DNA from: Diprion similis
Taxonomy: Eukaryota > Arthropoda > Insecta > Hymenoptera > Diprionidae
Direction of reading: 5' to 3'
DNA length: 64,000 bases
Assembly (NCBI RefSeq): GCF_021155765.1
Contig: NC_060110.1
Span: 248,001 to 312,000, forward strand
The position numbers and the translations under genes are program-made. Numbering within the stretch: the first letter of the stretch is position 1; every line of letters starts with the position of its first letter. This document shows positions 2 through 18,110 of this stretch, piece after piece. The notes beneath the pieces were generated by a model. The model saw nothing but the letters and a program-made list of their open reading frames with translations, did no database searches and was not told the origin of the DNA.

Positions 2-1714
2 AATGCACTAATACGAAACAAGAAAGGCAAAGCTGTCATCCGTGCTATCAACACGACTGACGAAGACAAGTTAGTAATCGTGCCCACTGTTGAATCATTA
101 GATGCAAGCGAAGCTATTCCGCTCGCTGGAATAGATGACGCAGATGAGCAAACGGAAAGTAATAATATTGAAATATCAACTTGCAACTCTAGAGAGCGTT
201 CAGATGCCATAATCGAACTACTCCGGTTAGATCACCTTGCCGAAGAAGAACGAGATAGTGTCGAAAGAATTGTTAGGGAAAATGCCGACATATTCCATAT
301 TCCCGGTGAAGCATTAGGTAGCACCACAGCCATAAAACATAAAATAACAACTACAGATAGTATTCCTGTACACACAAAACAATACAGATTTCCTCCAATA
401 CACAAGGAAGAAATAGCAAAGCAAGTTAAAGAGATGGAAGAAAACGATATAATTAGACAATCAGTATCACCATACAGTTCTCCTCTCTGGATCGTGCCTA
501 AAAAACCCGATTCGAAAGGAAATAAAAGATGGCGAATCGTGATAGATTACCGAGGCTTAAACGAAAAAACAATCGGTGACGCGTACGCATTACCAAATAT
601 CACAGAAATTTTGGATCAGTTAGGAAGCGCGCGTTACTTTTCAATATTCGACTTAGCATCAGGTTTTCATCAAATACAAATGGACGAAGAAGATGCATGT
701 AAAACCGCATTTTCCACTCCATATGGACATTACGAATTCATGCGAATGCCCCTTGGATTAAAAAACGCACCTGCGACTTTCCAAAGATTAAAGGACCAAG
801 TACTTTTGGGTCTACAAGGAATAGAATTATTCATTTATCTAGACGACATTGTCGTTCATGCTACTTCACTCAAAGAACATGAGACAAAAATAAATAGATT
901 GATGAACAAACTCCGCAATGCCAATTTAGTTTTGCAACCAGACAAATGTGAATTTTTGAGACACGAGGTCACGTACCTAGGTCATATAATCAGTGATAAA
1001 GGAGTCGAGCCAGATTCGAAAAAAATTGAATCAGTAAAAAAATTTCCGACGCCTAAAACAGCGCGAAACATCAAGCAGTTTCTTGGACTAGCAGGGTATT
1101 ACCGTCGCTTTATTCCAGGATTTTCAAAATTAGCAAAACCCCTCACAAATTTATTGAGAAAAGATACAAAGTTCGAATGGAAAAGCGAACATCAGGAAGC
1201 TTTCGAGATATTGCGTGATAAATTGTGCGAAAAACCCATTCTCCAGTACCCGGACTTTGAACGTCCGTTTTTACTTACAACAGATGCATCGGGACACGCA
1301 ATCGGAGGCGTATTGAGTCAAGGTGAAATAGGGAAGGACTTACCCATATCATATATATCTAGAGTTTTAATGTCAGCGGAAAGAAACTATTCCACATTTG
1401 AAAAAGAATTATTGGCCGTAGTATGGTGTGTAAATTATTCCAGGCTTCATGGACGAGAGTTTACCGTAGTATCCGACCAAAAAGCGTTGTCGTGGTTTCA
1501 CAAAAATAAGAACCCTTGTGCACGATTGGTCAGGTGGAAAACATTACTTGCAGAATTTCAATGCACTATAAAGTATGAAAAAGGACACGCTAATACGAAT
1601 GCCGACGCGTTATCTAGAAACCCAATAGACAAACGATCCGAATCCATTAGAACCCGAAGTTGCATATATACAAACAATGGAGTTAGAAACGACAAACGAA
1701 TCAGAAACAACTAA
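2..1714 (+). pseudogene. pol: Ty3/gypsy pol, part 1: reverse transcriptase and RNase H
   Basis: The frame is open from base 2, so the protein enters from outside the window and the protease is missing. RT motifs in order: the WRIVIDYRGLN block near 530-560, FDLASGFHQI (motif A aspartate) near 650, and FIYLDDIVV (motif C, YLDD) near 832-860. The fingers-to-thumb part continues with the FLGLAGYYRRFI block typical of Ty3/gypsy. RNase H follows with the TTDASG aspartate near 1280, the FEKELLAVVW glutamate near 1400 and the SDQKALSWF aspartate near 1475. RT and RNase H active-site residues all look present. After the RNase H tail the reading frame changes between about 1625 and 1677, and the product continues in another frame with the macrodomain ORF. 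This could be decay or a recoding site. The domain style resembles the 17.6/297/gypsy group of insect elements. Confidence 0.88.
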
Positions 1715-2690
1715 TGAAGATATTTTTGAACAACCGCCAGTAATAGAAGAATTGACAGGAGATTTATTCACTGCAGATGAAAATTTCTCATTAGTCCATT
1801 GCGTGGCAGAAGACTTGCATATGGGCGCAGGCATTGCTGTTCACTTTAAGAAAAAGTTTGGTAAAATCAATGAACTCCGAGAACAAAATAAAAAAGTCGG
1901 AGATGTAGCTCAGTTGCAAGTGGGAAGAAGATTCATTTATTATTTGAACACGAAAAAACGAAGTAACGACAAACTCATTATCAAAAATTTAGAAAAAGCA
2001 TTAATTCAACTTAGACGCACGTGTAAGCGTAATAATGATTATCGACTCGCAATGCCCAAGATAGGTTGCGGTCTAGATATGTTGTCATGGAAAACGGTTA
2101 ATAAATTATTTAACAAAATCTTTAAATATCCTTTCAAAATTCGAATTTATTCTTTACCAAACCCAGAAGAAAATTTAGATAAAGACGCCGAACTTACTTT
2201 GGCCGATGATTTAGGTGACATGACGATCACCCCCTTTGAGGAGGTACCACCGATTTATCGAAGCATAGACCTCGAGACAATAGCAGAGGTACCCGATCAG
2301 GTAGAAGAGGCAGGAACCAGCGGAGCTTCTCTCCCCAGGTTACCTGAAAATTTAAACGTAACATTCAAAGATAATGAGGTTGATAATCCTATAGAAAATC
2401 AGGATAATTCAGATGTGAGTGATCAGGAAGAGAATACAGATTCCGAATCAGACAATGACGAACTTTTACACATTGATAGTGACATAGGCGACACCGATGA
2501 AATTTTAGAACCCGGTTCAAGACCTTATGAGTTACGAACGGACTCGGAACTCAAGGTCACAAGGAGCAAAGAAAAACTGTCGATGCATAAAGGTAATGTG
2601 GCTTTCTTTATAACACAGCAGGGCGACCTGTTGATAGCGGAGCACACGACATGCTCAGTAAATACAAAACATGAAAATTCGAAGATTTAA
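1677..2690 (+). CDS. Macrodomain (TARG1/OARD1-like) plus acidic linker within retroelement pol
   Basis: This 337-residue ORF lies exactly between RNase H and integrase, where these elements normally have only a short linker. Residues about 26-165 look like a macrodomain of the ALC1/TARG1 (OARD1) type: a GDLF start, the phosphate-binding loop in EDLHMGAGIAVHFKKKFG, a YYLNTKKR strand and the PKIGCGLD loop with a terminal aspartate. TARG1 enzymes remove ADP-ribose from glutamate/aspartate using a lysine and an aspartate; both residue types occur at the corresponding motif places, but exact alignment is my inference. The rest is acidic and serine-rich (about residues 235-280). The frame differs from both neighbours: a stop (TAG 1626-1628) precedes it in frame, and near 2625-2632 the integrase-side frame takes over. 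Alternatives are another macrodomain subfamily; the fold call is fairly firm, the exact subfamily less so. Confidence 0.8.
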   Translation: MELETTNESETTNEDIFEQPPVIEELTGDLFTADENFSLVHCVAEDLHMGAGIAVHFKKKFGKINELREQNKKVGDVAQLQVGRRFIYYLNTKKRSNDKLIIKNLEKALIQLRRTCKRNNDYRLAMPKIGCGLDMLSWKTVNKLFNKIFKYPFKIRIYSLPNPEENLDKDAELTLADDLGDMTITPFEEVPPIYRSIDLETIAEVPDQVEEAGTSGASLPRLPENLNVTFKDNEVDNPIENQDNSDVSDQEENTDSESDNDELLHIDSDIGDTDEILEPGSRPYELRTDSELKVTRSKEKLSMHKGNVAFFITQQGDLLIAEHTTCSVNTKHENSKI

Positions 2691-4021
2691 CGATGGGTAG
2701 AGCAAGATTGATAGAAAGAGAAAATAGGAAGATAATAGCTCTGCCAATTAAGGAATCGAGAAAACGAAAAGTAGATCCAGAAATATTCATCGAAGCAATA
2801 GCGTCCCTATTGGACGTCGTCATGCAAGTCGAGCTTCCAGAAGTATCAATTTCTAGAACTAATTTTATTGACAATATATTATGGAAAGAAATACTCAGTC
2901 GAATAAAAGCAACGCCTAACGACTGTCCGTGTACGCTAACTATTTACGACGACTTAATAGAAACTCCCCCGGAAGAGATTAGACAGGGTATAATACGAGA
3001 AAATCATGAATCATCCATAGGCGGACACAAGGGTGTTACTAAAACTTACCTTAGAATCGGACAAAAATATTTATGGCCAAATTTGAAGCGCCAGATACAA
3101 GAATATATAAGTAAATGTTTCGAGTGTGCAACATAAAAACTCACTCGTGTAAAGCATAAGCAACCTATGGTAATTACTGATACCCCAGAATCAGCTTTTG
3201 AGAAAATTTCAATGGACATCGTAGGCCCTGTGCCTATGACAAGGATGAATAATAATTATATATTAACAATTCAAGACTTACTTATAAAATATTCTTTAGC
3301 AATGCCTCTTAAAGAAACCGATTCTGTGGCTATCGCAGACGCTTTAATTAAAAATTTTATTTGTATCTATGGTGCGCCTAGACATATCCTAACGGATCAA
3401 CGATCAAATTTAACCAGCTCTCTGATGAAAGCAATAGCAAAAAGATTCCGTATAACTCAAAATAGAACTACAGCATTTCACCCACAGTCTAATGGATCGA
3501 TAGAAAGATCACATCACGTATTAGTAGAATATCTCAAACAATACGTAAGTAATAAATCCGATTGGGACGAGTGGATAGAATTAGCAATGTTTTCATATAA
3601 CACAAGTACCCATGAAGGTACTAGATACGCGCCATACGAGCTAGTTTTTGGCAAAGAAGCCAGAGTCCCTTCAAACTATGCGTCAATTGAACCTGTGACG
3701 GATAGGACGTATGAAGAATATTTGATCACTCTGTGTGAAAAACTGCGCGAGCTCCAAACTCAAGCGGGAAAGAACCTTGTCCAGGCAAAGAATAAATATA
3801 AATTCTATTACGATAAAAGGATAAGATCATTGCAATTAAGACCTAAAGACGAAGTATTTTTACTAAAAGAACCTCATAAAGGTAAATTAGGAGACCAATA
3901 TACAGGCCCGTATGAAGTTTTGGAGATATTACTTAATAATAACGTTAAGCTATCCATATGTGGTAAGAACCGAGTTGTCCACATGGACAAACTGAAGAAG
4001 GCAAGAAGTAATCTAAAGTGA
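2675..4021 (+). pseudogene. pol: Ty3/gypsy pol, part 3: integrase, interrupted
   Basis: The stretch holds an integrase zinc-binding region (the H-x-H part in ENHESSIGGHKG near 3000-3035 and the CFEC pair near 3115-3130). The catalytic core follows with the first aspartate in SMDIVGP (about 3215), the second in LTDQRSN (about 3400) and the glutamate in NGSIERSHH (about 3490-3515). After it comes the FGKEARVPSN region and a C-terminal GPYEVLEI segment near 3905. An in-frame TAA at 3134-3136 separates the zinc finger from the core, and a TGA at 2672-2674 lies just upstream in the same frame. The catalytic triad itself is intact by reading. The ORF ends at 4021; an A-rich stretch and about 140 bp of AT-rich spacer follow before the first nested insertion. 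Confidence 0.87.
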
Positions 4022-4159
4022 TTTTTGAATTACAAAAAAAAAAGAAAACTCATGCCGACCCTTCGATTTTCGTCCACAGGAACACATAACACTTGAAACC
4101 TTTTGTTTAACACCATTTAAATATAAGCTACTATATAAGGCTTGTACACATATATATAT

Positions 4160-6315
4160 TGTAACGGCCACACTCACCTTACGGGGAATCTAAGAATAAG
4201 CTAGGTCGCCAGCAAACGCTCGCAACGTGCACCAGGAATAATTATAAAATTTAATTGAAATCCGAAAGGGAAGAGCTGTTGGGCGCCAGGTCGCAATGAC
4301 CACGATATAGGTAGCGATACGTTAAAGCAGATCAAAAGAAAAAGAAAAAAAAGGAGGTAAACAGCTGCTCTCAGCTGCGGTCCTTGACCTCGGGATGCTC
4401 AGCTGTGAGTTTTTGGCAGAGGGGAACGTGGGGGCAAAGAGTGAAACAAAACACGTAAAACAAAGCACCGTAGGTTAGTAGCTGAAAGAGGGATTTATTT
4501 GAGGTAGATAAGGAAAGTCTCAACTACGCAACCTTGAACATGCCACCTCGTCGGTAAAACAGAGTACAGATAGGTCCCCGTGACGCGTCACGAAAGGCGA
4601 CGGGAAACACGGGGCGGGGGGGGGGGGGGGGGGACGAGAATAACAAGGTTTTAACAAAAGAATTAATATCAGGGATACAATTAATGGACGGTGACGCCAA
4701 GCTAAGCGACACAAAATGGCAAAACTAGAACACCTAACTCGACATACAATATTTCAACAAATTATTTATCGATAATTACACACGCGGGATTGAATATTAA
4801 TTACTCTAGGACTTATTCGATAGAATATCACAAGATCACATAGATAGTTACAACGATATGAATAACACAAACAGGCAGGAAGATATTATACAAAAGGGAC
4901 AACACTCAGTAGTTGTCGCGAATATTTATCGAATACTGACTATTTTTTCGGTCCTTGTTATTTTATATTAACAATTGCGGTCGACTATACGCGATGTCGG
5001 TAACAAACTATACTGTGACACGGAGTATATGGACTAGATAAGGGCGGAATAATGAAGAGACGCTACTAACGCAAATAAAGAATCGCACGCACATGCACAC
5101 ACACACTCACACAGGGGGGGAGGTGATACACGTGATAATACAATAGAAATGAAATGGGGATAAGAATATTAAGAAAATATTAGCACACACCAGGTAAATA
5201 AATTAAAAGGTAGTTAATCTAAAGGTCATAAGCACACGAAAACCCGAGAGAAAAGCAACGGATGGAAGCACCGGTAATGGCGGCTTCGATCAGTTGCGTC
5301 TAAATCGGAATGGGATATATTCAAGAGAGATTCAAGGTAATAACTCGGGGAGTCGTGCGGGAATGGAAGCTTACTCACAAAATTCAGGAGTTAGTAATCC
5401 GTAGGAAAACGATAACAACTAAACACAAAAACACAGAGGTAATTTCAGTGATGCAGATAAGGTACGTCAGGTCACTATGATAGCAGGACGAGAAGTGACG
5501 CTATCATGGCGGTCTTCCCCTAGCTTCGTCAGCGTTGCCAAAACAGTAACAGAAGACAATCGGGAGATGGCATTGGCGCGTTGTCTCTGGAGAAGCCGGC
5601 CGGTAGGTGTCCGGGAAGGGCTCGCGGCTCTCAGCTGTTTCTCCGGGTCCCTCTCGTTGTGCGATAGGCGGCGAACCGTCGGGTTGAGCGGGGTCGAGCG
5701 AGGGTGGTTACGTTCACCGCCGGTAGCCGGGGCCGTTGTCGGCCCGCCGAGGACGAGTTTGCATCTTTTCGATACAGATGGAACTGCGATGCTGGACCAT
5801 CAGGATTTGCGGTTCACCAATTTGACGCCAGATAATATTAGCGGTATTGGAATTGGCGGAATTGGCTAGACGTCGTTCGGTCTCGGCGGCAGTCGTTCGG
5901 AAATGCTCTTTCCCTTCAGTTGATGAACACAGTCCCGTCGATAGGCAGCAGCCCTGGCGATATCTCGGGAGTTCGGTAGCAGAGACCCAGGTACTCGTCT
6001 GAGGCGTTGAGGAACCTGCCTGGGGTGAATCCAAGGAGATGCTCGCATTCCCAGGTTGTTAGGATCGTTCGGGAGGTTAGGTGCTGCCGGCGTTCTCCTT
6101 CTTGACGTGCTCTCGGGGTGCCCGCTCATGGGAAGGGATTGGAGGTAGTCGGGACATAGGGAGAGATATTTAAAACAAACAGAATGAGGAAAATATTCTA
6201 TTTAATTTTAATTCCGCCCATATTGTACGCCATGACTTCTCATCGCTACCGTTTTATAAGAGAATTTGGGGTAGAGGTGGCGGTCTATAACATGCGTTAT
6301 AAGCGCAATGTTACA
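4160..6315. mobile_element. Long solo-LTR-like insertion A (about 2.16 kb), TSD ATAT
   Basis: The unit begins TGTAACGG and ends ATGTTACA, giving TG...CA ends with a short inverted TGTAAC/GTTACA repeat. It is flanked by ATAT on both sides (4156-4159 and 6316-6319). It has no internal copy of its own start, so it is one LTR-like unit rather than a full element. About 115 bp in, at 4278-4290, is a GTTGGGCGCCAGG motif that recurs at the same relative place in insertion B, so A and B look like relatives. A-rich and TACGATA-rich filler makes up the middle; a GC-rich stretch lies at about 5580-6130. The ORFs in it (for example 5477-5869) show no recognisable domain. An 18-base run of G sits at 4616-4633. 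The alternative is a non-autonomous LTR element with very short internal sequence. Confidence 0.7.
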
Positions 6316-6358
6316 ATATATACATATATACGCATAAAAATATATACTCGATATACAC

Positions 6359-9032
6359 TGTGACGCTAAATTCTGTTACCCTCTGACAAGGACTTACCGT
6401 TAACACTTTGGCGCGATTCTCCAATTATTCGATACGATATTTAAGATACGAAAAGATACTCGTTGGGCGCCAGACGCTTCAGCGTCAATTTTTAGAGAAA
6501 AGGGAAAGATACGATACGATAATAATAACTAGAGAACCCGTTGTATGGCTGGCTAGGCTCAAGTACTCACACGAACTGGTAGAGTGGCGGTATCCAAAGG
6601 CAGTTACAACAGTTACGGAAATAAGGAAATAAAGAAATCAAGAAATAAGCTCGAATCAAGTAAATTAACAAGTCAATCCATCGTGTATTATTGATCAGTT
6701 CACAAGCGGTAGTCTAGTCAGGTTTGTTACAGAAAGGTAGCAAAAGATAATTGGTCAACGAGACTAGTTTACAAGATTTTGGTTAAAAGAAGCTAAGCGA
6801 TAATTCGCACAAAAGTGATAGGTAACAAAAGAAATTAATCGTAGGTCGAGAGAAGCGATATAATGCAAAAAGTCTACCTCAACTAGACGTCATTGGGCGA
6901 CGTGATCTTACCCAAATTTCAAAAGCGGCACTACGAGAATTGGTAATTTGTTAAATTAAAGCAAAAGTGAAACTTTAGCGAAAATCGGTAGTTGACGGAA
7001 TTGACGGTAGCTTAGAACGATAGTGACAAGAAAATAATATTGAAATTACGACAAACGGTAATTAGCGAGAAAGATTGACAGTGATATACGATTCACAAAT
7101 GTCGGTAGCTTATACGGAAGAATTATTCACGGCAAGTGAATCGATAATTACAACAGTCAAAATTACGATATTAAATTAACAAGGAAATTCGAAATTACGA
7201 TAACGAGAGAAAATACAAAAGTTATACGAGATTGAGAGGTTTACAGAAGGGATCGCAGAGTAAAAATAATACACTAAATACCCCTGGTTACAATAAGCAA
7301 CTTAAGATAACACAGAAATACGATATTCGGGAAACAAGAAAATATTACAAGGTAATAAGAAATGTAAATCAATATAAGCGATAGAAAACAAAGGTGCGGT
7401 AGTATTTAGCGGCTTAATCTACGCTCAGCTGTACTCCAAGTAGCTCGATATACGATACGAAATTTCATGCACAAAGCAAATAATATAAAACAAGCGATAC
7501 GATACAAAGCGATAGGCAATACTAGTAAGAAAAGTAAAGATAGCGATAGCGATAGACAGTAGAAATTACACAAGCGTTTCTAGCATAAAATTACGAGAAG
7601 CAAAGAAAATCAGATATACAAAAGATAAGCAAAGAAATTCAGACATACAAAAGATAGTTATTCGGTAGTTACAAGGTCGCTCACCATAGGTTTTCGGAAA
7701 TTAATTACAAAACGAAATTATGCAGTCGCACGGCGGCTTACAGCACCTCAATGTCCGTGGACCATGATTCACAAAGATACCGGCATCATTCGATGCAACC
7801 AAAACGATAATTAAGATACGATACAAGAAACAGAAATTAGAGCAACTTCGTAACGGTACGATACATAGGCGAAAGCCTTACCTTAGTCGGCGACGAGATT
7901 AGACACTGACTTTATTTTAAATTAAACTTAAAGAAAAGCATAAAAGAAAGGAAGTGATTTTACAGGAAGGAGTGAAGCTAAAAGATCAAAACGATAGTGG
8001 GTGCGAAAAAGGTAACGATAGCGATAGCGATAAAGGAATAAGCGATAGTGGTAGAATATAAGAGGAAGGTTGAAGGATTTCTAACTAAACGAGAGCGAGG
8101 TGGTAGCGAAGCTGTCTCCTGGCGGGTTGAGCGTAGTTCGGAGTCCGGATCAGCGATCTCGCCGATGTCGTCAGGTGATTCTCCTTCCCCTTCGGCGGTC
8201 ATTCAATCCCCACCATAATTGGGTCATCCCTCTGGCGAATATTGGCTACGCGTTATCGACGATTACCGCTAGATGAGCGTAGTTGACATCACACGTACTT
8301 TTCTTCGGCTGCTGCGTCGTACTGTCCAGATTGCCTGTCATTGGGGGTTCCCTCCACGAAGGCAGGTACGTAGGCTACCTCCGGAAGGTTACCGGATGGG
8401 GTGCAACTCCACATTGTTTGCCTTCGCCGGCTTCGTCGTCTAGGTAGTGGCCAACTGCCCACGATATATCACGAAGATCATGCAGTCACACGGCGGCTTA
8501 CAGCACCTCATCGTCCGTGGACCATGACTCACAATGATTGTAGCCCTTACTGACAGGGAGGCTGCGTCGATCCTCAGGACGAGGGCTTCATCAACTTTGG
8601 ACGTAGTGTTTTGGGTTCGGTCCGGCTCCTGGCCGGTAAGTCGGTGAACGACAGGCTGCGGTCTGCCCTTAATGTCGAACTTACGGCATCCGAAAAAGTA
8701 GGCATTCAAAGTTGTACGGGAGATTCATGTTTACGGAACGGTAGTTGAATTCGTCGGTAGCTGGAACTGTAGTTTTCGGTAGTTGTCGGTAGTTGTCGAT
8801 CTCTCGGTGAATCAAAGAAACGTGTTGATCCCTCGGTGATCGTGATTGCGGTACCTGTTTAGCTTGCGCCGAAGCGCGGGATTACAAAATTTGTACAGAA
8901 AATATTAGTAACTAGTATTTTTCGCCTATATCGTATCGAGCTTGCTTGGAGTACCCCGCCAGGGACGCGTTTTTGGTAGTTTCCTTTAGATTTTTAGCCT
9001 TGTAACGAGCCATTCTGAAATGCCACGTTACA
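6359..9032. mobile_element. Long solo-LTR-like insertion B (about 2.67 kb), TSD ACAC
   Basis: The unit begins TGTGACGC and ends CACGTTACA, with the 4-base duplication ACAC at 6355-6358 and 9033-9036. Only 43 bp (6316-6358) separate it from insertion A. Shared features with A: TGTRACG start, the GTTGGGCGCCAG motif about 100 bp in (6459-6471), long A-rich and CGATA-rich interior and a GC-rich block near the right end (8090-8700). No transposase or polyprotein motif is visible. Four-base TSDs fit gypsy-type integrases. The ATAT and ACAC duplications differ, so A and B are separate insertion events, not one element with two LTRs. Confidence 0.7.
7721..8535 (+). repeat. Two direct copies of a 55-bp motif inside insertion B
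   Basis: A block starting TGCAGTCRCACGGCGGCTTA at 7721-7775 recurs at 8481-8535 with only a few differences by eye. The copies are about 760 bp apart. They suggest a local duplication inside the LTR-like unit or a shared regulatory block; nothing in the sequence tells which. Confidence 0.6.
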
Positions 9033-9086
9033 ACACATAAGTATACATATACACGTATAAATAGTTTTAAAAGGAAAAACCTAACA

Positions 9087-9548
9087 ATGAAGTTACCGGC
9101 AAACGAAGATGGGTTTGACTTTGAGGTAATTTTCTTACAAAAACCTGTCTCTAATAACAAACGGTTAGTTACCATTGAAATTAAGATGTATTCAATAAAA
9201 ATTATAACAAATTTTGGATGCGATGCACTCACGAAATTTACCCTTGTAGAACTAGTTTGTAAGACAAACATAGCTGAAGGCGTTTATGAATTTTTTCGTA
9301 AAATAGTAGAGAGTGTAGATGAAGTAGATGATATGATAACTGATTTCCAATTAGTAGACGTAACAAAGAAACAGATATTGTTTTTCATCAAGATTCATAA
9401 TGGAAAATGGTACCCACCGAGCCTTATCTTCGTAGGCCAGGGAACCATTGGGATACTTTCGGAATATTCCAGGGTAAATAATAAAATCACTTGTATGGAA
9501 ACCGAAAATTATAACAAACTGTTAGAGGACAGTGATATAGAGATATAA
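9087..9548 (+). CDS. Unknown 153-residue ORF between pol and env of the gypsy element
   Basis: I do not recognise this protein. It is uninterrupted, starts at an ATG preceded by an A-rich stretch (AAAAGGAAAAACCTAACA), and ends about 70 bp before the env start. The composition is mixed: hydrophobic strands (IEIKMYSIKIITNF, ILFFIKIHNGKW) alternate with acidic stretches (ESVDEVDDMITD) and an acidic C-terminus (EDSDIEI). No signal peptide, membrane segment or zinc-binding pattern is evident. Its place suggests an accessory protein of the env-bearing element, expressed from pol read-out or a spliced message. It could also be host-derived cargo like the macrodomain. It is one of the few fully open frames in the element. 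Confidence 0.6.
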   Translation: MKLPANEDGFDFEVIFLQKPVSNNKRLVTIEIKMYSIKIITNFGCDALTKFTLVELVCKTNIAEGVYEFFRKIVESVDEVDDMITDFQLVDVTKKQILFFIKIHNGKWYPPSLIFVGQGTIGILSEYSRVNNKITCMETENYNKLLEDSDIEI

Positions 9549-9618: not shown

Positions 9619-11607
9619 ATGATGTTAAAATTCGAGGTAACCATCACCATCATCCTATTATGGAACAATGGAGCGCTCAGCCTCATCGGATATGACTGCG
9701 GAGGAGCAGCCTTAAACGTAACAACTATTAGTTTATTGGAGATAGACGAGTGCGATATAGACCCCCAACAGACACAGACAGAAAAAACTTATATACAGTT
9801 GCTGCAGTTGACGGAATATAAGCAGACAAATGTCATACAATGTAAAGTGGAAATAGATCGGACGGTGTACAGATGCGGATCATTTTCACACAATTCGGTA
9901 ACCGATGGCGGAAGGAAGGCCTACCTCCCTCGAGTATCAAGAGAAGCATGCGAACTACTGCACCGCTCCGGAACAATTGCTATAGGCACAAAAACCAATT
10001 TTGTGGAAATTCCAGTTAATGCAACGACGCTACGCGACGCGACCTTAGCGGGAAGCCTGACGTCAGACGGAACCTGCCAAGGCGAATACTATAATGACGG
10101 CTACGGACAATGGGAAAAGGCCGTGGTGCAAGCTATCATTAAGATTTCAACCCAATCTTATACTGCAGATGTCAAGATTTCCAGGAATCAGATGATTTTA
10201 ACAGGCGGAACAGTATGCCCCTTCGCCGACGGACATTGCATCGACGAAGACGGCGGACACACATATTGGGCCACCATGCCATTCGACGAATGTAAATTCG
10301 ATAACTACGATGTCTTATATACAGGATATGCAAACAGAATGAATGCAACAAATTCACCTACAATTTACTCCTTGGAAACAGAAGAAACGACTTTCGCTTT
10401 AATGGAAAAATCAAGAACCAACGTTTGCGGGTACCGCATCATCAATACGGAACACCCACGATTATATATTTTCGAAACAAATCCAACTGAAACGTTCAAG
10501 CAGCGAACGAAATTAGCAGTATCAAACATCGACATGTTTTCATGCATGAACTCTAAATTTATCTATGTGGAAAAACGTATACGAACACAGACGACAAATT
10601 TATATCGAGACGTAATTGAACAAAAATGTAAATTAGAACAACAAGTGTTAAAAAATGCATTAAATTTAGCTGAAATATCGCCAGACTACTTTGCATATAA
10701 CTTGATGAAAGGACCAGGATACTTCGCTACAGTCGCTGGAGAGGTAATATACATTATGAAATGCATACCAGTGGAAGTTGAGTTTAGAAAGATCGAAGGA
10801 TGTTATAACGACTTACCAGTTAGATACCAAAACAAGAGTATGTTCCTACGAACTAAATCAAGAATTATTGTTAAAGCAGAAATATTAGGAAATTGTAACG
10901 AAATTGTACCACCCATGTTTAAAGTAGAGGACACCTGGTATAAATTTACACCTCGTGCCGCAGAAGCTAAAATACCACAAAGACTAAAGCCTTTGACGTC
11001 AATGAAATGGAAATACAGCAGCCCCGGACCACTTGGAACGAGCGGGATCTACACAAAAAAGGAATTGAAAGAATTGAGGGACCACATCATGTTTCCGGTT
11101 GAGAAACCCGCGCTACTGGACACAATCTCGAGAGGAGCGCGAGGCGAAAACATAGACTCCGGTTCAATTAATATGTACAATCTATTCGACGAAAAGACAT
11201 TGTCTAAAATTGCAGAATCAACGGCACGCATGCTATTCTCAGGTTTCACAACATTCGAAAGTATAATTGGAAGAATTTGGGGATTGTGGGCCATATGGTC
11301 ACTTTTAAAATTTCTTATTGACACTTGTGTACATGGTTATACACTTCATGCCGCGTACGGGTGGAATTTTTAGTTAATAACAGCATTATGGGACTCTATA
11401 ACTAATCTGTTAATGCATTTAAGTCATCGTGAAATTAATGAATCTACGACCGAAACTGTGTCGAACGATCAGGAAAACATTGAACAAACCTCCTGTCCTT
11501 CACCAACACAGCCTATCCGAGTTTATGAAGTAATGAATTCTGACATAGAATTAAGAAAATTGGAAGAAAGAGCGCAAAAGCGAGCGAAAGATCTTGATAT
11601 TGTATAA
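9619..11607 (+). pseudogene. env: Envelope glycoprotein, chuvirus-like, with one in-frame TAG
   Basis: The first open part (9619-11373) is 584 residues. It starts with a hydrophobic signal-peptide-like segment (residues about 6-24), then a cysteine-rich ectodomain with several N-glycosylation sequons (NVT near residue 34, NAT near 135). A hydrophobic helix close to the end (about residues 552-575) could be the membrane anchor. The pattern of cysteines and the SLLEIDECD, LLQLTEY and IQCKVEIDR segments read to me like the glycoproteins of arthropod chuviruses (Jingchuvirales), which are known to have been captured by insect LTR elements. TAG at 11371-11373 interrupts the frame right after the anchor region; the same frame then stays open to 11607 with a charged, coiled-coil-prone tail. 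The family call is from memory of motifs and needs a profile search. A baculovirus-F-type env seems less likely because no furin-like site followed by a fusion peptide is visible. Confidence 0.72.
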
Positions 11608-11655: not shown

Positions 11656-11751
11656 TATGACGTCCCTAGGTAACGTCCTATATATATTTTTCACAACTAT
11701 ATACATTATAATACTAATGCTCTCTTTCTTAGCCTTTGTGGAAATATTGTG

Positions 11752-11955
11752 TATTGAGGATTGTGTAGGAATGTATGAGTGGTGAGAAAAGAAATATAAA
11801 GGTTCGGATAATGTAGACGTATGTGTTTATTGTATGACGTGCTACCGACAACTGAACAGAAAAGTAAGGACGAAAGCTCGAACCTTGATATGCGATCTGC
11901 GCGCGCATGTGCTGGTATTATTCTCGACGTGCGAGAACTATTTTATTTTTCAACA
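11752..11955 (-). repeat. Copia 3' LTR
   Basis: This 204-bp LTR matches 16131-16334 with no difference seen. The last codons of the RNase H frame run into it (frame ends at 11943). The adjoining minus-strand polypurine run is GGCGGGAG at 11956-11963. Confidence 0.9.
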
Positions 11956-13474
11956 CTCCCGCCGTTTGAGTATGTCGAGACTCCTATACCTAAATTAACA
12001 CATAAGAAATTAAATTGGCTCTTTGGGAGTGCCTTGGTGAATATATCGGCTAATTGCCGTTCTGTCGGTACATATTCCACCGATATTTCGCCATTTTCAA
12101 CAATCTCTCGTATGTAGTGATACTTAATGTCTATATGCTTAGTTCTTTTATGAAATTCGGGATTCTTTATTAGACGAATTGCACTTTGATTATCTATTTT
12201 TAATGCTGTCGCAGTATTTGGTAAACACCTGAGATCGCGTAACAGTTTCCTTAGCCAAACGGCTTCTCTCGCAGCCGCTGCTGCTGCAACATATTCGGCT
12301 TCGGTGGTGCTGAGCGTAACTAGTTTCTGTCGTTGTGACGACCATGACACAATACCATTCGACACACAAAATGCATAGCCTGTCGTGGATCTGCGCGTTT
12401 CCACATCGCTCGCAAAATCGGAATCAGAGAAACCCAGTAATTCTAAATTACTCCCGCCACTTGTATAATTTATACCGACTTTAGTAGTTCCGATCAAGTA
12501 ACGAAAGATTCTTTTTACAGCTTGCCAGTGACTTTCGTTATGATTGCTCAGATATTTACTGACCGAGTTCACAGAATACGCGATATCTGGTCTTGACACA
12601 ACTGCGAGAAACAACAAGGACCCTACTGCTTCTCGGAACGGTACATTATTCGATTCTACAATATGGCTATCATTTAGAGTTAACTTTGCGTGTGGATCGG
12701 CAGGGACGCTTGCAACTTTTGCTTCGTTCATCTTAAATTTACTTAGAATTTTATTAGTCTACGCTTCTTGATGCAAGAAAAGTGCCTTTTTCTCTCGATC
12801 TCGTACTATTTGTACTCCGACAAAGACTGTCCCGTCTCCAAGCGTAATCTCGAACGCGTTTTTCAAGGATTTGACAACCGACTCGAGAGCTTGACTATTG
12901 TTTGCTGCTATGAGCCCGTCATCCACAAACAGAGCTAAAAATACTTCGGTACCGTCGACATGGCCCCGAAATATGCACTTGTCGGCCTCTGTCTCGCGAA
13001 AACTGTACTGTCTCAAAAATTCACGAAATTTTTCGTTCCAGCACCGAGGTGCTTGTTTCAAACCATACAAAGATTTGTTTAGTTTGCTAACTAATTCTTG
13101 ACTTTCTTCTTTCTTGATCTCGAGCCCCTCTGGTATTTTCATGAGAATTTCCTCCTTCAGTTTCCCATGGAGGAAAGCCGTCCTCACGTCGAATTGTGCG
13201 AGTTCTAAGTCCTTTTCAGCCACCACGGCCAGTAGGACTCGTAAGGTGTCGTATCGTACGACTGGTGAGAAGGTCTCGTTATAGTCAAGGCCCTCTTTCT
13301 GTTTGAACCCTCGAGCGCAGAGTCGTGCTTTATATCGGTGCACATTGCCTGATGTGTCTGTTATAACTTTGAATACCCATTTTGAATCGATGGGTTTTCG
13401 ATCGTTCTTTTTCGGTACGATTGTCCAAGTTTCGTTTCGTTCATGTGCGTCGAATTCTTCTCTTATTGCTCGAC
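11943..13474 (-). pseudogene. pol: Copia pol, 3' half: reverse transcriptase and RNase H
   Basis: The frame downstream of the one-base shift near 13475 carries the copia RT: the HRYKARLCARGFKQ block, motif A in AQFDVRTAFLHG, the SLYGLKQAPRCW block and motif C in LALFVDDGLIA (FVDD). TAG at 12759-12761 then interrupts the same frame. RNase H follows: GFSDSDFASD aspartates near 12410-12440, the STTEAEYVAA glutamate near 12300, IDNQSAI near 12190 and the HIDIKYHYIRE segment near 12120. The protein ends at 11943 inside the LTR. Apart from the shift and the stop, no other lesion is visible and the catalytic residues look intact. Confidence 0.9.
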
Positions 13475-15949
13475 CCAGTTTTCGGCCTCTGGACTATTCA
13501 TTGCCTCCTGGAACGTATTTGGCGGATTATATTCTGCAACATCGACCACATACCTGGCTGGCAACCGAATGTTGTTTCGGTCTCGCAGTTGTCTAGCCTG
13601 ATTGGGTTGTTCGAGTTCTTCTTCGCGAAGAACTTGTACTTCCTCGACTGCCTCAGGTTCAACTGCTTCGGGTTCTTCCTGTTCCTCGAAAACTTCTGGC
13701 TCGTCTTCGTTATCAGCGACAGGGAAGGTGTATTCTAATTCTTCTTCTTCCGACGATCCATGCTTCGACTTCTCATTGAAGGTGACGTCCCTAGACACTG
13801 ATATTTTCTTTGTTTCAGGGTTGTACAGACGATAGTTTGTTGAATCGTTCTGATACCCGACTAAAATCAATTTTGCTGATTTCCAATCTAGTTTCTTACG
13901 AAACTGCTTGTCAATGTGCATGAAGGCGTCTGACCCGAACACACGGAAATGGGATACGTCTGGTGGTTTTCCCATCCAAATTTCATATGGCGTTTTCACG
14001 TTACCGGCTGATAATACTCGATTAAGCACGGTAACTGCCGTACCGACTGCTTCAGCCCACAGAGAGAGAGGAAGACCTTTTGCTGAAATCATCGTGCGAG
14101 CACTCTCTACAATCGTCCGGTTATCGCGCTCGGCTTTGCCATTTTGCTGCGGCGTGTATGGCGCCGTGTTTACCAACTGGATCCCTCGAGTTGCGAGATA
14201 CTGCTCCATTTCTCGATTGCAATATTCACGCCCATTGTCCGTGCGTAATATCTTCATTGGTTTGCCGAACTTGTTGTTGATTAGCCTCTCGAACTTCTTG
14301 AAAATAACAAAAACGTCAGACTTATGTTTCATGAAATACACATGCCGGAAACCTGACGCGTCGTCTTTAAAGTTTATGCAATATCTCGAGCCACCTGTTG
14401 ATTCTACCGAGAACGGACCACATACATCTGAATGTATGTACTCTCCGGGTTGTATGTTTCTTTTTCTTTCGGTCTTCTTGAACGCGAGCCTGTGAGATTT
14501 TCCGTAAGCACACGATTCGCAAAAGAAATCGTCAACGTCGGTAGGTTTCACACCACGAATTAACCCTTTCTGTATCATTTCCCGCAACACTCTATTGTTT
14601 ATATGTCCCATGCGCTCGTGCCACAAGTGCAAGTTCACTGTTGACACATTCGCTTCGTTTTTGACACTCGAGTTCTTGGCTCTGAAAAACATGCGGTAGA
14701 TTTTGTTATCTTGTCTCACACCGATACCGAAAGTTTCACCGTCACGATTTACAGTCACGTATTGTCCTTTGAACATAACCTCGAACCCCTTCGACGTACA
14801 CACGCCGACCGAGAATAGATTTTTTCTCCGTTTGGGAACGTATAACACGTTTTCAATGCGCGCTTCGCACCATTCGCCATCCACGAGTCTATCGATTACC
14901 ACAGTGCCTGTACCGGCAATCTCGCACACGCCGTTATCCCCGAGCGATATTGATTCGCCGCTCCTCGGGTAAAACTCACTATACCACTCTCGTCGGTAGG
15001 TGATGTGCCTAGAGGCACCACTGTCGGTAATCCAAACGTCATTTGTATCGACTGCCATGAGTCGTTGGATGACCTCACTAGATGGTGCTGCCTCTGTTTT
15101 CTTGTGTTGCTGACCGCTCTCACGACCGCGTGCACCGGAAGTCGCAACAAACGCACATTCGCGAGAATTTTCACCGCTTTTCTTTTTGTCCTTTTTCTTT
15201 TTTCGACACTCGCGAGCATAATGACCTCTTCTTTTGCAATAAAAGCACTCGACACTTGTTTTATCACTTTCCCGATTTTTCTCGCTATCTTTACTTGCAC
15301 TCGCGGTAAACTTTTTCTTGCTGTTCCCGCCAAGACTCACAGCGGCTAGCGCTCGGGCGACGTCATCGTCTCCTTCGAGTCGTCTCTCTTCCTTTATTAA
15401 TCGTTCCAGCAAATTTTCGAGCGATTGGTTGTCTTCGGGTACACTATCCCACGCTGTTTGGAGGGCGTTATATCGGGATGAAAGGCTACCTAGAACCTTT
15501 GCCATAATGGCAGTGTCCGAGACGTTCTCTCCCAGATCCTTTAGCTGAGCCGCCATATTCTGTACTCGAGACACGTAATGCACTACTGATTCGTTCAAGT
15601 CCATGCGGTGCCCATGAAATTTTTGCAGCAACAGCATCTTATTTGACGCGGATCTCTGTTCGTGGATTCTTACCAGTTTATCCCACATTTGTTTGGCTGT
15701 CGTGCATTCCAGCAAGCAGTCAAGCTGAGAATCCTCGATCGAGGACGATACAATGCACATGGCCGTGGCATTGTCATTTACCCACTTTTTGCCGTCCGCA
15801 GATTGAGCGTCTGCCGGCATCACTCTCGCACCCGTCACGATATCTTGGATCGCGTTCGCGATGAGCATCGAATTCATTCGAAATTTCCAGGCTTGGAAAT
15901 TCGAGCCATCAAACTTTTTGATACTTTTGAACAGAGTTGTTTCCGACAT
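13463..15949 (-). CDS. gag-pol: Copia Gag, protease and integrase
   Basis: This 828-residue frame begins with a copia-type Gag (FDGSNFQAWKFRM, then the SNKMLLLQKFHG and LEERR-type helices). A CCHC zinc knuckle is at about residues 236-249 (CFYCKRRGHYAREC). An aspartic protease has the DSGASRHI active site near residue 312. The GAG-pre-integrase zinc finger has LWHERMGHINN and the FCESCAYGK cysteines near residue 480. The integrase core shows HSDVCGP, LRTDNGREY and NGKAERDNR, giving the D-D-E triad. The ATG at 15949 lies about 180 bp inside the 5' LTR junction at 16131, giving a short leader. The frame ends early because of a one-base loss near 13475, so the RT half is in another frame. Confidence 0.93.
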   Translation of the reverse strand: MSETTLFKSIKKFDGSNFQAWKFRMNSMLIANAIQDIVTGARVMPADAQSADGKKWVNDNATAMCIVSSSIEDSQLDCLLECTTAKQMWDKLVRIHEQRSASNKMLLLQKFHGHRMDLNESVVHYVSRVQNMAAQLKDLGENVSDTAIMAKVLGSLSSRYNALQTAWDSVPEDNQSLENLLERLIKEERRLEGDDDVARALAAVSLGGNSKKKFTASASKDSEKNRESDKTSVECFYCKRRGHYARECRKKKKDKKKSGENSRECAFVATSGARGRESGQQHKKTEAAPSSEVIQRLMAVDTNDVWITDSGASRHITYRREWYSEFYPRSGESISLGDNGVCEIAGTGTVVIDRLVDGEWCEARIENVLYVPKRRKNLFSVGVCTSKGFEVMFKGQYVTVNRDGETFGIGVRQDNKIYRMFFRAKNSSVKNEANVSTVNLHLWHERMGHINNRVLREMIQKGLIRGVKPTDVDDFFCESCAYGKSHRLAFKKTERKRNIQPGEYIHSDVCGPFSVESTGGSRYCINFKDDASGFRHVYFMKHKSDVFVIFKKFERLINNKFGKPMKILRTDNGREYCNREMEQYLATRGIQLVNTAPYTPQQNGKAERDNRTIVESARTMISAKGLPLSLWAEAVGTAVTVLNRVLSAGNVKTPYEIWMGKPPDVSHFRVFGSDAFMHIDKQFRKKLDWKSAKLILVGYQNDSTNYRLYNPETKKISVSRDVTFNEKSKHGSSEEEELEYTFPVADNEDEPEVFEEQEEPEAVEPEAVEEVQVLREEELEQPNQARQLRDRNNIRLPARYVVDVAEYNPPNTFQEAMNSPEAENWVEQ

Positions 15950-16114
15950 ATTCGTTCGATTATTTTACCGAGTCCGCGGATACCGTTACACCACGACACT
16001 AGGATGGCGACCACGTGTCGACCAACAAGAGAAAAAAAATCGAGATAACACTTTATTTATTTTAACGTCCACCGTTCTTTCGACTACACAAATCTATTTT
16101 TCTGCAGGCTGCTT

Positions 16115-16130
16115 GCCTGGGCCCATAACC
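16115..16130 (-). other. Copia primer binding site
   Basis: On the minus strand GGTTATGGGCCCAGGC directly follows the 5' LTR (16131-16334). It matches the type of site used by Drosophila copia, which primes from an internal fragment of initiator methionine tRNA. Confidence 0.8.
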
Positions 16131-16334
16131 TATTGAGGATTGTGTAGGAATGTATGAGTGGTGAGAAAAGAAATATAAAGGTTCGGATAATGTAGACGTA
16201 TGTGTTTATTGTATGACGTGCTACCGACAACTGAACAGAAAAGTAAGGACGAAAGCTCGAACCTTGATATGCGATCTGCGCGCGCATGTGCTGGTATTAT
16301 TCTCGACGTGCGAGAACTATTTTATTTTTCAACA
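16131..16334 (-). repeat. Copia 5' LTR
   Basis: This is the second 204-bp copy, identical by eye to 11752-11955, next to the primer site. If the shared TAT at the outer edge is counted as flank instead, the LTR is 201 bp and the flanking match is 8 bp (TTGTGTAT). The 5-bp reading is preferred because it is the usual size and puts the primer site right at the LTR edge. Confidence 0.9.
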
Positions 16335-16763
16335 TTGTGTATTAACTAAGTTACACAGAATAAGTTTTGCTTATATAATTTATTCATTATAAAGAAGACG
16401 AAATAACGTGGAAGAGAAATGACATTAATATAATGCATACGAATATGGCTCGCCTCATGAGATTGTCAGCGACCATCTTGTTCCGTCTTCACTCTGCAAC
16501 ATATATAGACACACATACGTATATTAGATTTGTGATACCGCTAAAAAACTGTTTTATTGGGAAAAAGTATATAATTATTAGAATTATAACTAAGTTGCGA
16601 GTAACAATACTCGATATTCGTACAATAATGCATATCATTATATTAACTAAGAAAATGTATTGAGAATAATATCAAACAATATCTAAGGAGACGAGTGTAC
16701 CTCACGTCAAAGAAAAGCTATATCCAAGAGCGTTCGTGTACACCGAGTAAATAATTATATTTC

Positions 16764-16928
16764 AATATACAATTGACCACACGATTTGTAAACGTTTATA
16801 TTAAAATATACATTTGGTCACGATTTGTAAACGTTTATATCAGAATATACTTTTGGTTACAATTCATAAACGTTTATAGTGGAATAAACTGGCGGCCACG
16901 ATTTCTAAATGTTTATACCAAGATAAAC
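16764..16928 (+). repeat. 39-bp tandem repeat, about four copies, in LTR U3-like region
   Basis: The core ACGATTTGTAAACGTTTATA recurs at 16781, 16820, 16859 and 16898, exactly 39 bp apart, each copy diverging slightly. It lies a few dozen bases upstream of the GC-rich part of the LTR, where enhancer or insulator repeats occur in insect retroviruses. The role is inference. Confidence 0.85.
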
Positions 16929-17250
16929 AAGTATTAAGTATCTATCAATAATGCGATAGCCCGACGCCCGGGAATGGAGTCGAATAAACACTCTCAGGCT
17001 CTCGGACCAACGCCATCTTGGAGTGGGAATGCCACGCGGGAACCCCCGGACTGGTGAAAGGGAAGCGGCCATTTGCAAAAGCACCTCCTACCACACGGCC
17101 GAGGCGGTCGACTGCAGAGCACGGACTCCTCACTTCTTCGCCGAGTTTTGTTCTGTCTACGAGCTTCAAGATCTGTTCTCTTGAATATTAATCTTAAATA
17201 TTAACTTTAACGTGTAACTTCTTCATCACTTGTACATTTATTCATGAGAT

Positions 17251-17702
17251 TTAATTGAAAGAGTTTGTAATAATATATGGGTTACAGACCCAAAAGTTAA
17301 ACAAAGTGTATTCATTTCTTAGAAAGTATTTAAAAACTAAAGTCAGTGAAATACCCAAATTCGAAGTTATCCAATTCACAATCAAGAGTCTCCTCCACGG
17401 GCAGATCCAGGCCCTAGTTCAACACATTCCGACGACGGAGTAGTCCACGAGGTCACCCAGCAGGTGATCAGAATACCTGAGGTTATCACGATTGATTGAA
17501 AAGTAAGTAAAAACATTCCATGTTACTATATTCCATAAAGTCTCATTCTTCCAAAAGAAATCCCGTGAAATATAATCCGTGGCAGGGGCCCGGGTCCCAC
17601 AAATAAAAATAGGGCTCCTTAGACTCTCGGGCGACGTGTCGGTCGCGACTGTAAAAATAGAGAATTTTTTTTTTTTTTTTATTGAACATTCGCTCTGGGA
17701 CG
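17251..17702. other. Unassigned AT-rich stretch before satellite
   Basis: This holds an unrecognised 62-residue ORF (17255-17443) and a 17-base T run (about 17666-17682). It could be the tail of the retroelement LTR, or host sequence. No domain, terminus or repeat copy is visible. Confidence 0.4.
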
Positions 17703-18110
17703 TCACAAAACCCTCGATTCTCGTCGGTTCTGACCGTTCTGAAAACCTGAAAGTGTTGGGTGCGTTTGTCAGAATCGCAGACACTTAGGTCAGCCCAGCA
17801 GAAAAATTGAAGATATCTCGATTTGGAGACGAGATAGCCAGGAATTCTACATTTTTCAACGGATTTTGGCTATTTCTAAATCGATCCTGAAATTCTTGGG
17901 TGGGTTCGACAGAGTTGCAGACAGTCAGCTGCCCCGCACCGAAAATTCAGAAAAAAGTTGGTATTGGGCTGAAAAAACCTCGATTCTCGTCGTTCCTGAC
18001 CGTTCTGACCAAGTTACGATCAAAACCTGAAATTCTTGGATGCGTTTGTCAGACTTGCAAATACTCAGGTCAGCCCAGCAAAAAAATTAGAGATATCTCG
18101 ATTTGGAGAC
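17703..18110. repeat. Satellite block 1 (about 281-bp monomer)
   Basis: About 1.5 monomers, recognised by GATATCTCGATTTGGAGAC, GTTCGACxxAGTTGCAGAC and ACCAAGTTACGAT motifs also found in blocks 2 and 3. It belongs to the subtype with ACATTTTTCAACGGATTTTG. It breaks at 18110 at the insertion site of the solo LTR, and the duplicated GAGAC restarts the monomer at 25766. Confidence 0.85.

Follow-up and report, generated by a model that had tools for sequence, protein, structure and literature searches.

A TARG1-type macrodomain between RNase H and integrase in Ty3/gypsy pol of Diprion similis and other insects

Why should the pol gene of an insect retroelement encode a domain resembling a cellular ADP-ribosyl hydrolase? 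The question is raised by a stretch of 64,000 nucleotides from the hymenopteran Diprion similis (contig NC_060110.1, positions 248,001 to 312,000 of the forward strand; hereafter, the window), which starts partway through a Ty3/gypsy pol gene, the 5′ part of the element lying before it. The original prediction, made from the letters alone, was that an open reading frame (ORF) at 1677-2690 encodes a macrodomain of the TARG1/OARD1 type, lying between the RNase H and integrase of an env-bearing retroelement. That ORF (plus strand, 337 amino acids) is present in the window's ORF list, and we find that both the identity of the domain and its place hold up. As to its use, the reading we favor, at a probability of roughly 0.45, is that the domain would be an active mono-ADP-ribosyl hydrolase that is produced as part of Pol and acts on the complementary DNA (cDNA) or at integration rather than at entry.

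Sequence and structure agree on what the domain is. Residues 21-160 of the ORF (window 1737-2156), to which the domain is confined, resemble human TARG1 (C6orf130) at E 2.6e-36 in a PDB sequence search and at 47% identity. The Pfam Macro family scores 25.3 bits against a cut-off of 22, and our own macrodomain hidden Markov model (HMM), which counts the window sequence among its training rows, matches positions 1743-2153 at E 1.5e-57. AlphaFold models these residues with a mean predicted local distance difference test (pLDDT) score of about 94, and the top structural match in the PDB is TARG1 (4j5s_A; root-mean-square deviation 1.2 Å, TMt 0.93), followed by DarG, with alphavirus domains below. 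The domain, here called macrodomain 1, thus belongs to the TARG1 class; sequence and structure both place TARG1 ahead of the MacroD-type viral macrodomains. Past residue 180 the chain runs into an acidic stretch with pLDDT mostly below 50.

The position of macrodomain 1 is equally clear. Reverse transcriptase (RT) and RNase H lie upstream, and the H2C2 zinc-binding domain and rve core of integrase lie downstream (frames 2693-3136 and 3167-4021), all on the plus strand. The pol of the window copy is broken into four ORFs; other copies are open across the corresponding stretch. The original prediction had allowed that a fragment of a host gene might have landed by chance in this copy only. A chance insertion in a single copy is ruled out by the number of matches in the genome, by their shared order, and by their occurrence in other species. 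The D. similis genome has at least 110 macrodomain matches, a lower bound in which some rows are pieces or tandem copies within one element. Frames of at least 1000 amino acids hold 39 of the 110 (two of the 39 with one stop inside the match), and frames of 1676-1841 amino acids hold 20. At 26 of the 30 loci fetched the macrodomain is preceded by RNase H and followed by integrase on the same strand, the exceptions being L024, L025, L027, and L031; L012 and L026 among these loci are one element, and the raw tally of 32 of 36 counts six repeated places. The expectation that other copies would carry the domain is therefore borne out at most loci, although some families of this genome depart from it, as weighed below. 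Relative to the window's macrodomain, identity is 95% in family A, 54% in B, 49% in C, 39% in D, and 34% in E, and there are other families. Family C (L050, L024; C14:3855436-3862500) has an unusual order, namely RT, RNase H, a second type of macrodomain described below (macrodomain 2), integrase, a divergent macrodomain, an aspartyl protease, and a TARG1-type macrodomain; this terminal macrodomain lies past integrase and contains a stop.

The same arrangement occurs beyond D. similis. Protein searches with the family B macrodomain and with one of its relatives, P0003, returned 9 and 17 proteins (the latter including P0003 itself), 24 of them distinct. The order RNase H-macrodomain-integrase was found in 14 of the 24: P0001 from Athalia rosae, P0026-P0028 and P0031 from Uroleucon formosanum, and nine others, with only the final part of RNase H remaining in P0001 and P0026. 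The Athalia macrodomain is 67% identical to that of family B. In the P0003 type, a single macrodomain with mostly retained catalytic residues ends 2-8 residues ahead of the zinc domain in the 13 proteins that have both (Athalia's excepted), a spacing taken from BLAST limits that depend on how the query was trimmed. The ten proteins without this order include P0002 and P0004-P0006, which are of cellular type, P0007, which lacks the zinc domain, and P0025, which lacks RNase H. Other elements seemingly carry TARG1-like macrodomains at other places: beside a tyrosine recombinase (P0008), before RT-RNase H (P0009), after a protease (P0035), and alone in a protein of 892 amino acids (P0033). The predictions P0004-P0006, from Cloeon dipterum, join a helicase, a Tudor domain, and a TARG1-like macrodomain, possibly as a piRNA-pathway fusion or as a gene-model artefact. 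With the window's domain as the only query, 11 short proteins were found, including an OARD1-like protein of a flea. Among the viral contigs of IMG/VR there were 109 matches to TARG1/DarG-like macrodomains; the 80 that were retained (L076-L155) had no pol match at E 1e-3, and we take these to be phage macrodomains.

Is the embedded domain likely to be an enzyme? Lys84 and Asp125 (TARG1 numbering) have catalytic roles in TARG1, and the window's macrodomain 1 keeps the two residues. Both are kept in all 25 rows selected as intact, where the only other invariant columns are D37, G43, and K90. Across all 30 aligned rows, which include near-copies, both L012 rows, and an extra L024 copy, Lys84 is present in 30 and Asp125 in 28. 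In an unselected set of 38 loci (L010-L039, L042, L054-L060), Lys84 is kept in 36 of 38; of the 34 loci that reach Asp125, 32 have it, with arginine in its place in L012 and L026. We judge macrodomain 1 to be probably a hydrolase. The ratio of replacement to synonymous substitution rates (dN/dS) across copies, a comparison proposed with the original prediction, gives a mixed result. The family B pair L014/L023 has a dN/dS of 0.17, with 28 synonymous and 22 replacement changes over 85.5 and 319.5 sites, respectively (Fisher p 5.8e-9), and in this pair macrodomain 1 is under purifying selection; the other pairs, taken up below, give weaker signals. Between families A and B the ratio is about 0.22, with dS near saturation.

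Next to the integrase zinc domain stands the degenerate macrodomain 2, a feature that had escaped the original prediction. It was matched in the window by an HMM built from the B, Athalia, D, and L054 sequences, with the window excluded; a stricter HMM, limited to D and L054, missed the macrodomain 2 of the window. Tandem macrodomains ahead of the zinc domain are seen in L054, L056, L057, and L060, and in family D the one nearest the zinc domain is 32% identical to D's own macrodomain 1 (E 4e-22). In single profile comparisons the D/L054 type of macrodomain 2 matches TARG1 relatives at E 3.9e-18, and the A/B/Athalia type matches both the D/L054 type and TARG1 relatives (E 3.8e-9 and 7.6e-7). 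Together with the HMM, these comparisons place macrodomain 2 in the macrodomain superfamily. An AlphaFold model of the Athalia piece is of low confidence (pLDDT 53.7, from an alignment of two sequences); the best 50 of its 1517 PDB fold matches (E ≤10) are macrodomains or designed hydrolases, which is supportive at most. We presume that these designed hydrolases were built on a macrodomain scaffold. Lys84 and Asp125 are each kept in 4 of 9 rows, and the window's macrodomain 2 aligns the lysine and aspartate without the glycine loops. Macrodomain 2 was found in families A, B, C, D, E, and G and at locus L073. Family G (three loci, frames up to 1896 amino acids) and L073 have macrodomain 2 only. 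In family H, read at one locus (L072; 1140-residue frames), macrodomain 2 was not found; this locus has neither macrodomain, and its spacer is of about 130 amino acids. At the family G locus L071, RNase H and macrodomain 2 are separated by a Ser/Thr-rich spacer of 668 amino acids, which matches no Pfam family at E 1. With a degenerate macrodomain at the N terminus of integrase, an enzyme appears to have been made over into an extension of integrase.

The element of the window can be delimited by its long terminal repeats (LTRs; Table 1). Its 5′ LTR lies upstream of the window (C6:243514-244820), and its 3′ LTR (window 11656-17707) is interrupted by a nested element. The computed starts, 243516 and 11658, were each extended by 2 bases on reading. 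The two LTRs are 91%, 91%, and 84% identical over pieces of 1048, 228, and 101 columns, and the sequence AAAC abuts both ends of the element as a 4-bp target duplication. With its order of RT, RNase H, and integrase, LTRs of the TG...CA form, and a short target duplication, the element is of the Ty3/gypsy type; its 3′ LTR begins TA where the 5′ LTR begins TG. The nested element we take to be of the copia type, judging by its ORF 11943-12731 (minus strand). The original prediction also called the host element env-bearing and spoke of it as an errantivirus. An env ORF does stand inside the LTRs, shortly upstream of the purine tract. The element is not an errantivirus by env type, because this env matches PF24664, the Monjiviricetes fusion glycoprotein family, and has no Baculo_F match at E 0.1, the baculovirus F-type env being the mark of errantiviruses. 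An origin of the env in a different element is disfavored; we assign it to the window element because it lies between the LTRs, directly ahead of the purine tract, and because in one B copy pol is followed by a related env.

Table 1. Coordinates of features of the Ty3/gypsy element and its nested insertion in the window
Feature	Position	Strand	Evidence and remarks
Pol part 1: RT (~497-991), RNase H (~1178-1558)	80..1714	+	RVT_1 E 1.1e-35; RT_RNaseH_2 E 4.7e-31; RT_RNaseH E 1.2e-30
Macrodomain 1, TARG1/OARD1 type	1737..2159	+	Catalytic residues TKKR and GCGLD retained; Pfam, PDB, AlphaFold, HMM
Acidic linker, probably disordered	2160..2602	+	pLDDT mostly <50
Macrodomain 2, degenerate, adjoining integrase zinc domain	2603..2968	+	Frame of ORF 2693-3136; HMM E 2.3e-16
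Integrase zinc-binding domain, H2C2	2966..3130	+	PF17921 E 1.2e-17; within ORF 2693-3136
Integrase catalytic core and C-terminal part	3167..4021	+	rve E 1.1e-8; Integrase_p58_C E 0.0023 (under cut-off)
Env, Monjiviricetes fusion glycoprotein type	9619..11373	+	Open frame of 584 aa; PF24664 E 8.3e-212
3′ LTR, first part	11656..11758	+	Purine-rich tract ahead
Nested element splitting the 3′ LTR	11752..16334	-	204-bp repeats 11752-11955 and 16131-16334, 100% identical
3′ LTR, remainder	16331..17707	+	~91% identical to 5′ LTR

Some features of the locus stand apart from this argument. The env ORF is still open despite the LTR difference of about 9% and the split pol, and a host use is possible. 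The roughly 5 kb between pol and env (4022-9086) were assigned to no family; since the corresponding gap in a B copy measures only about 0.4 kb, the window probably has a nested insertion there. No Pfam family matches ORF 9087-9548. Related tandem repeats with a unit of about 278 bp lie on both flanks of the window element (L009 1-2501 and window 17708-18110), and a B copy adjoins at its 3′ side a 148-bp tandem repeat (L040 3440-4501) that is unlike the former. A preference of these elements for satellite DNA is possible.

The kind of env that accompanies the macrodomain varies among families. PF24664 is seen in A and B, where the B copy has a broken env-like stretch with its middle missing. 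Baculo_F is found in aphid gene predictions. Among the proteins retrieved, it is joined to integrase in predictions P0025, P0026, and P0031 and to RNase H in P0007, and P0028 is annotated with it. The pairing of macrodomain and errantivirus-type env that had been expected of the window thus does exist, in aphid predictions. No env was found in the D and E copies read. In the D copy, with 442-bp LTRs differing at 4 positions, the approximately 1.17 kb from the pol stop to the 3′ LTR gave no Pfam match and no env match; in the E copy, the 3.2 kb that follow pol hold no plus-strand ORF of at least 90 amino acids and nothing that matches env at E 0.1. Recent activity is indicated by LTR identities of 99.1% in the D copy and 99.8% over 1078 bp in the B copy, along with the long open frames. 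As far as seen, the macrodomain is tied to pol and not to one kind of env. Since it is kept in Pol alongside two kinds of env and where none was found, it should serve a step that Pol performs.

How the domain entered pol can be approached by comparison with the host gene. Likely host TARG1 genes occur in tandem at another place in the genome (L049; C2:13508900-13513000), each in two pieces broken at the identical position and read as two exons; set against them, the uninterrupted pol copies are intron-less. That macrodomain 1 is a host gene lying beside a broken element is ruled out, as the likely host genes are elsewhere and are split by introns. We suggest that, long ago, a TARG1-type gene was taken into the pol of insect Ty3/gypsy elements, immediately ahead of integrase, and that in lineages with two copies, whether by duplication or by second capture, the catalytic macrodomain 1 came to lie upstream and the degenerate macrodomain 2 was fused to the zinc domain. 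The rve and macrodomain trees agree in grouping A with A2 and B with Athalia. Elsewhere the trees part. Families A-E form one group in the RT tree (98/100), as do A-E, G, and Athalia in the rve tree (84/93), with the P0003 type outside in both; in the macrodomain tree, by contrast, the P0003 type takes in D and E (91/89), and A, B, and Athalia fall among cellular TARG1 rows. This disagreement for A and B speaks for host TARG1 having been captured independently at least twice, in place of one old capture with duplication, as do the settings of the domain in P0009, P0035, and P0008. Against it, the approximately unbiased test does not reject, though it does not show either, that the 23 embedded rows form a single clade (p-AU 0.193; L024, P0008, P0009, P0033, P0035, and the macrodomain-2 rows were left out), and macrodomain 2 is placed alike in A, B, C, D, E, and G, so that it at least is probably shared by descent. 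Overall we give several captures an even chance, and for the A/B line a second capture would be about as likely as a duplication. Either history is compatible with the functional readings considered below.

It is informative to set this arrangement beside known systems. TARG1 itself, to which the embedded domain is so close, is a stand-alone cellular enzyme. The macrodomains of alphaviruses, coronaviruses, and hepeviruses likewise lie inside a viral polyprotein; they belong to another class, the MacroD type. In the structural match list the alphavirus and coronavirus rows have 18-20% identity to macrodomain 1. Insect errantiviruses share with the window element the LTRs, the RT-RNase H-integrase order, the 4-bp target duplication, and an env downstream of pol, and differ from it in the type of env. 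A macrodomain is not mentioned in the available portions of two papers on env-bearing gypsy elements of insects (PMC13172572, PMC12992720), the accessible text of two papers on accessory domains holds nothing relevant on “macro” (PMC6338049, PMC5408684), and no literature joining “macrodomain” with “errantivirus” was among the matches listed. Retroelements with a macro domain are already known: fish endogenous retroviruses have extra ORFs for a macro domain or CNPase (PMC4977317, citing Basta et al. 2009). By comparison, these are separate reading frames and not a domain within Ty3/gypsy pol, and the class of macrodomain is not stated in the part of that article consulted. A position inside Ty3/gypsy pol is new among the literature matches listed, none of which describes it; subscription journals and Repbase were outside their scope. 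Chuvirus-like glycoproteins have been reported next to sequence of LTR retrotransposons, among them Gypsy fragments in Hymenoptera (PMC7642597, PMC10084718, both in part), and the accessible part of the latter finds no clear evidence of glycoprotein capture by Gypsy; here such an env lies within Gypsy LTRs, and a related broken one follows pol in the B copy.

What, then, would the domain do? Made within Pol, macrodomain 1 would be produced in step with RT and integrase and, possibly after release from Pol, would reach the reverse-transcription and pre-integration complex. There it would strip ADP-ribose added by host PARP-type (poly(ADP-ribose) polymerase) enzymes to the ends or bases of the element's DNA, to integrase, or to target chromatin, and this removal would help cDNA completion or integration. 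Macrodomain 2 may now be a structural N-terminal extension of integrase. We favor this integration-step reading because the domain is kept in Pol alongside two kinds of env and where no env was seen, because TARG1 takes ADP-ribose off DNA thymidine and DNA/RNA ends, with K84A failing to rescue (PMC8501950, as far as the available text reports), and because insect-restricted alphaviruses have lost the macrodomain's catalytic residues. Several observations weigh against it. Macrodomain 1 is absent from other gypsy families of this genome (G, H, and locus L073). The full L012 copy and the extra L024 copy have lost Asp125, and Lys84 is replaced by glutamate in L031, by a gap in L058, and by glutamine in the truncated prediction P0031. 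Selection is less clear in an A pair (dN/dS 0.38, p 0.14) and a C pair (0.30, p 0.025), and further close B and D pairs range from 0.28 to 0.81 with at most 8 changes each. Even in L014/L023, dS differs along pol, at 0.43 for the macrodomain against 0.09 for RNase H and 0.16 for RT; recombination is thus possible, and a mosaic of two variants is likely. Finally, the lack of env in D and E comes from one copy each, and the 3′ LTR of the E copy was not located.

The alternatives must be weighed against the same evidence, and we rank them below the use of an eraser on cDNA or at integration in the order in which they follow. Erasure of ADP-ribose from host antiviral proteins, as in alphaviruses and coronaviruses, is an established use of viral macrodomains (PMC9087173, PMC7729036, each consulted in part), and the env genes of the window, B, and aphid elements would suit it. 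Yet the domain is retained in D and E, whose examined copies showed no env, and it is of the TARG1 type, unlike those of the viruses in question. Moreover, in the available text of PMC7729036, vertebrate-virus macrodomains counter antiviral PARPs, and the loss of catalytic residues from insect-restricted alphaviruses correlates with the absence of antiviral PARPs in mosquitoes. We consider this explanation unlikely. The original prediction had offered such an infection-linked use together with control over how integrase or DNA ends are modified; the former is weakened by families D and E, and the latter would fit better. In other gypsy elements, chromodomains tether integrase, and the macrodomains might similarly read rather than erase, binding ADP-ribose or poly-ADP-ribose on chromatin to bring integrase to chosen sites. 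The place of macrodomain 2 directly beside the zinc domain and the tandem repeats on both sides of the window copy and at the 3′ side of one B copy are in keeping with this idea, which we nonetheless hold to be improbable: the hydrolytic residues of macrodomain 1 are within only five invariant columns, macrodomain 2 is without ADP-ribose loops and varies at Lys84 and Asp125, and two insertions are no test of targeting. Least probable is that the macrodomain is a captured gene fragment that hitch-hikes without function. Degenerate tandem copies, families lacking macrodomain 1, and the weakness of most pairwise selection tests speak for such a history, but frames are open in several families, the catalytic residues stand among the invariant columns, and one pair is under purifying selection.

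The favored reading, that macrodomain 1 would act as an eraser on cDNA or at integration, can be carried further. It is a possible but doubtful extension that TARG1 was captured early, that what fills the long spacer separating RNase H from integrase in this group is a macrodomain or a remnant of one, and that ADP-ribosylation of cDNA or of the integration complex is a general host barrier to retroelements in insects, met by an eraser carried in Pol. Viral macrodomains are mostly viewed as answers to the interferon-induced PARPs of vertebrates. A TARG1-type eraser in recently active insect elements, both env-bearing and with no env found, would point to a different use. If our reading is true, then reverse transcription or integration would be what ADP-ribosylation acts on, and the mark, its target, and the enzyme that places it would be directly testable in animals believed to be without antiviral PARPs.

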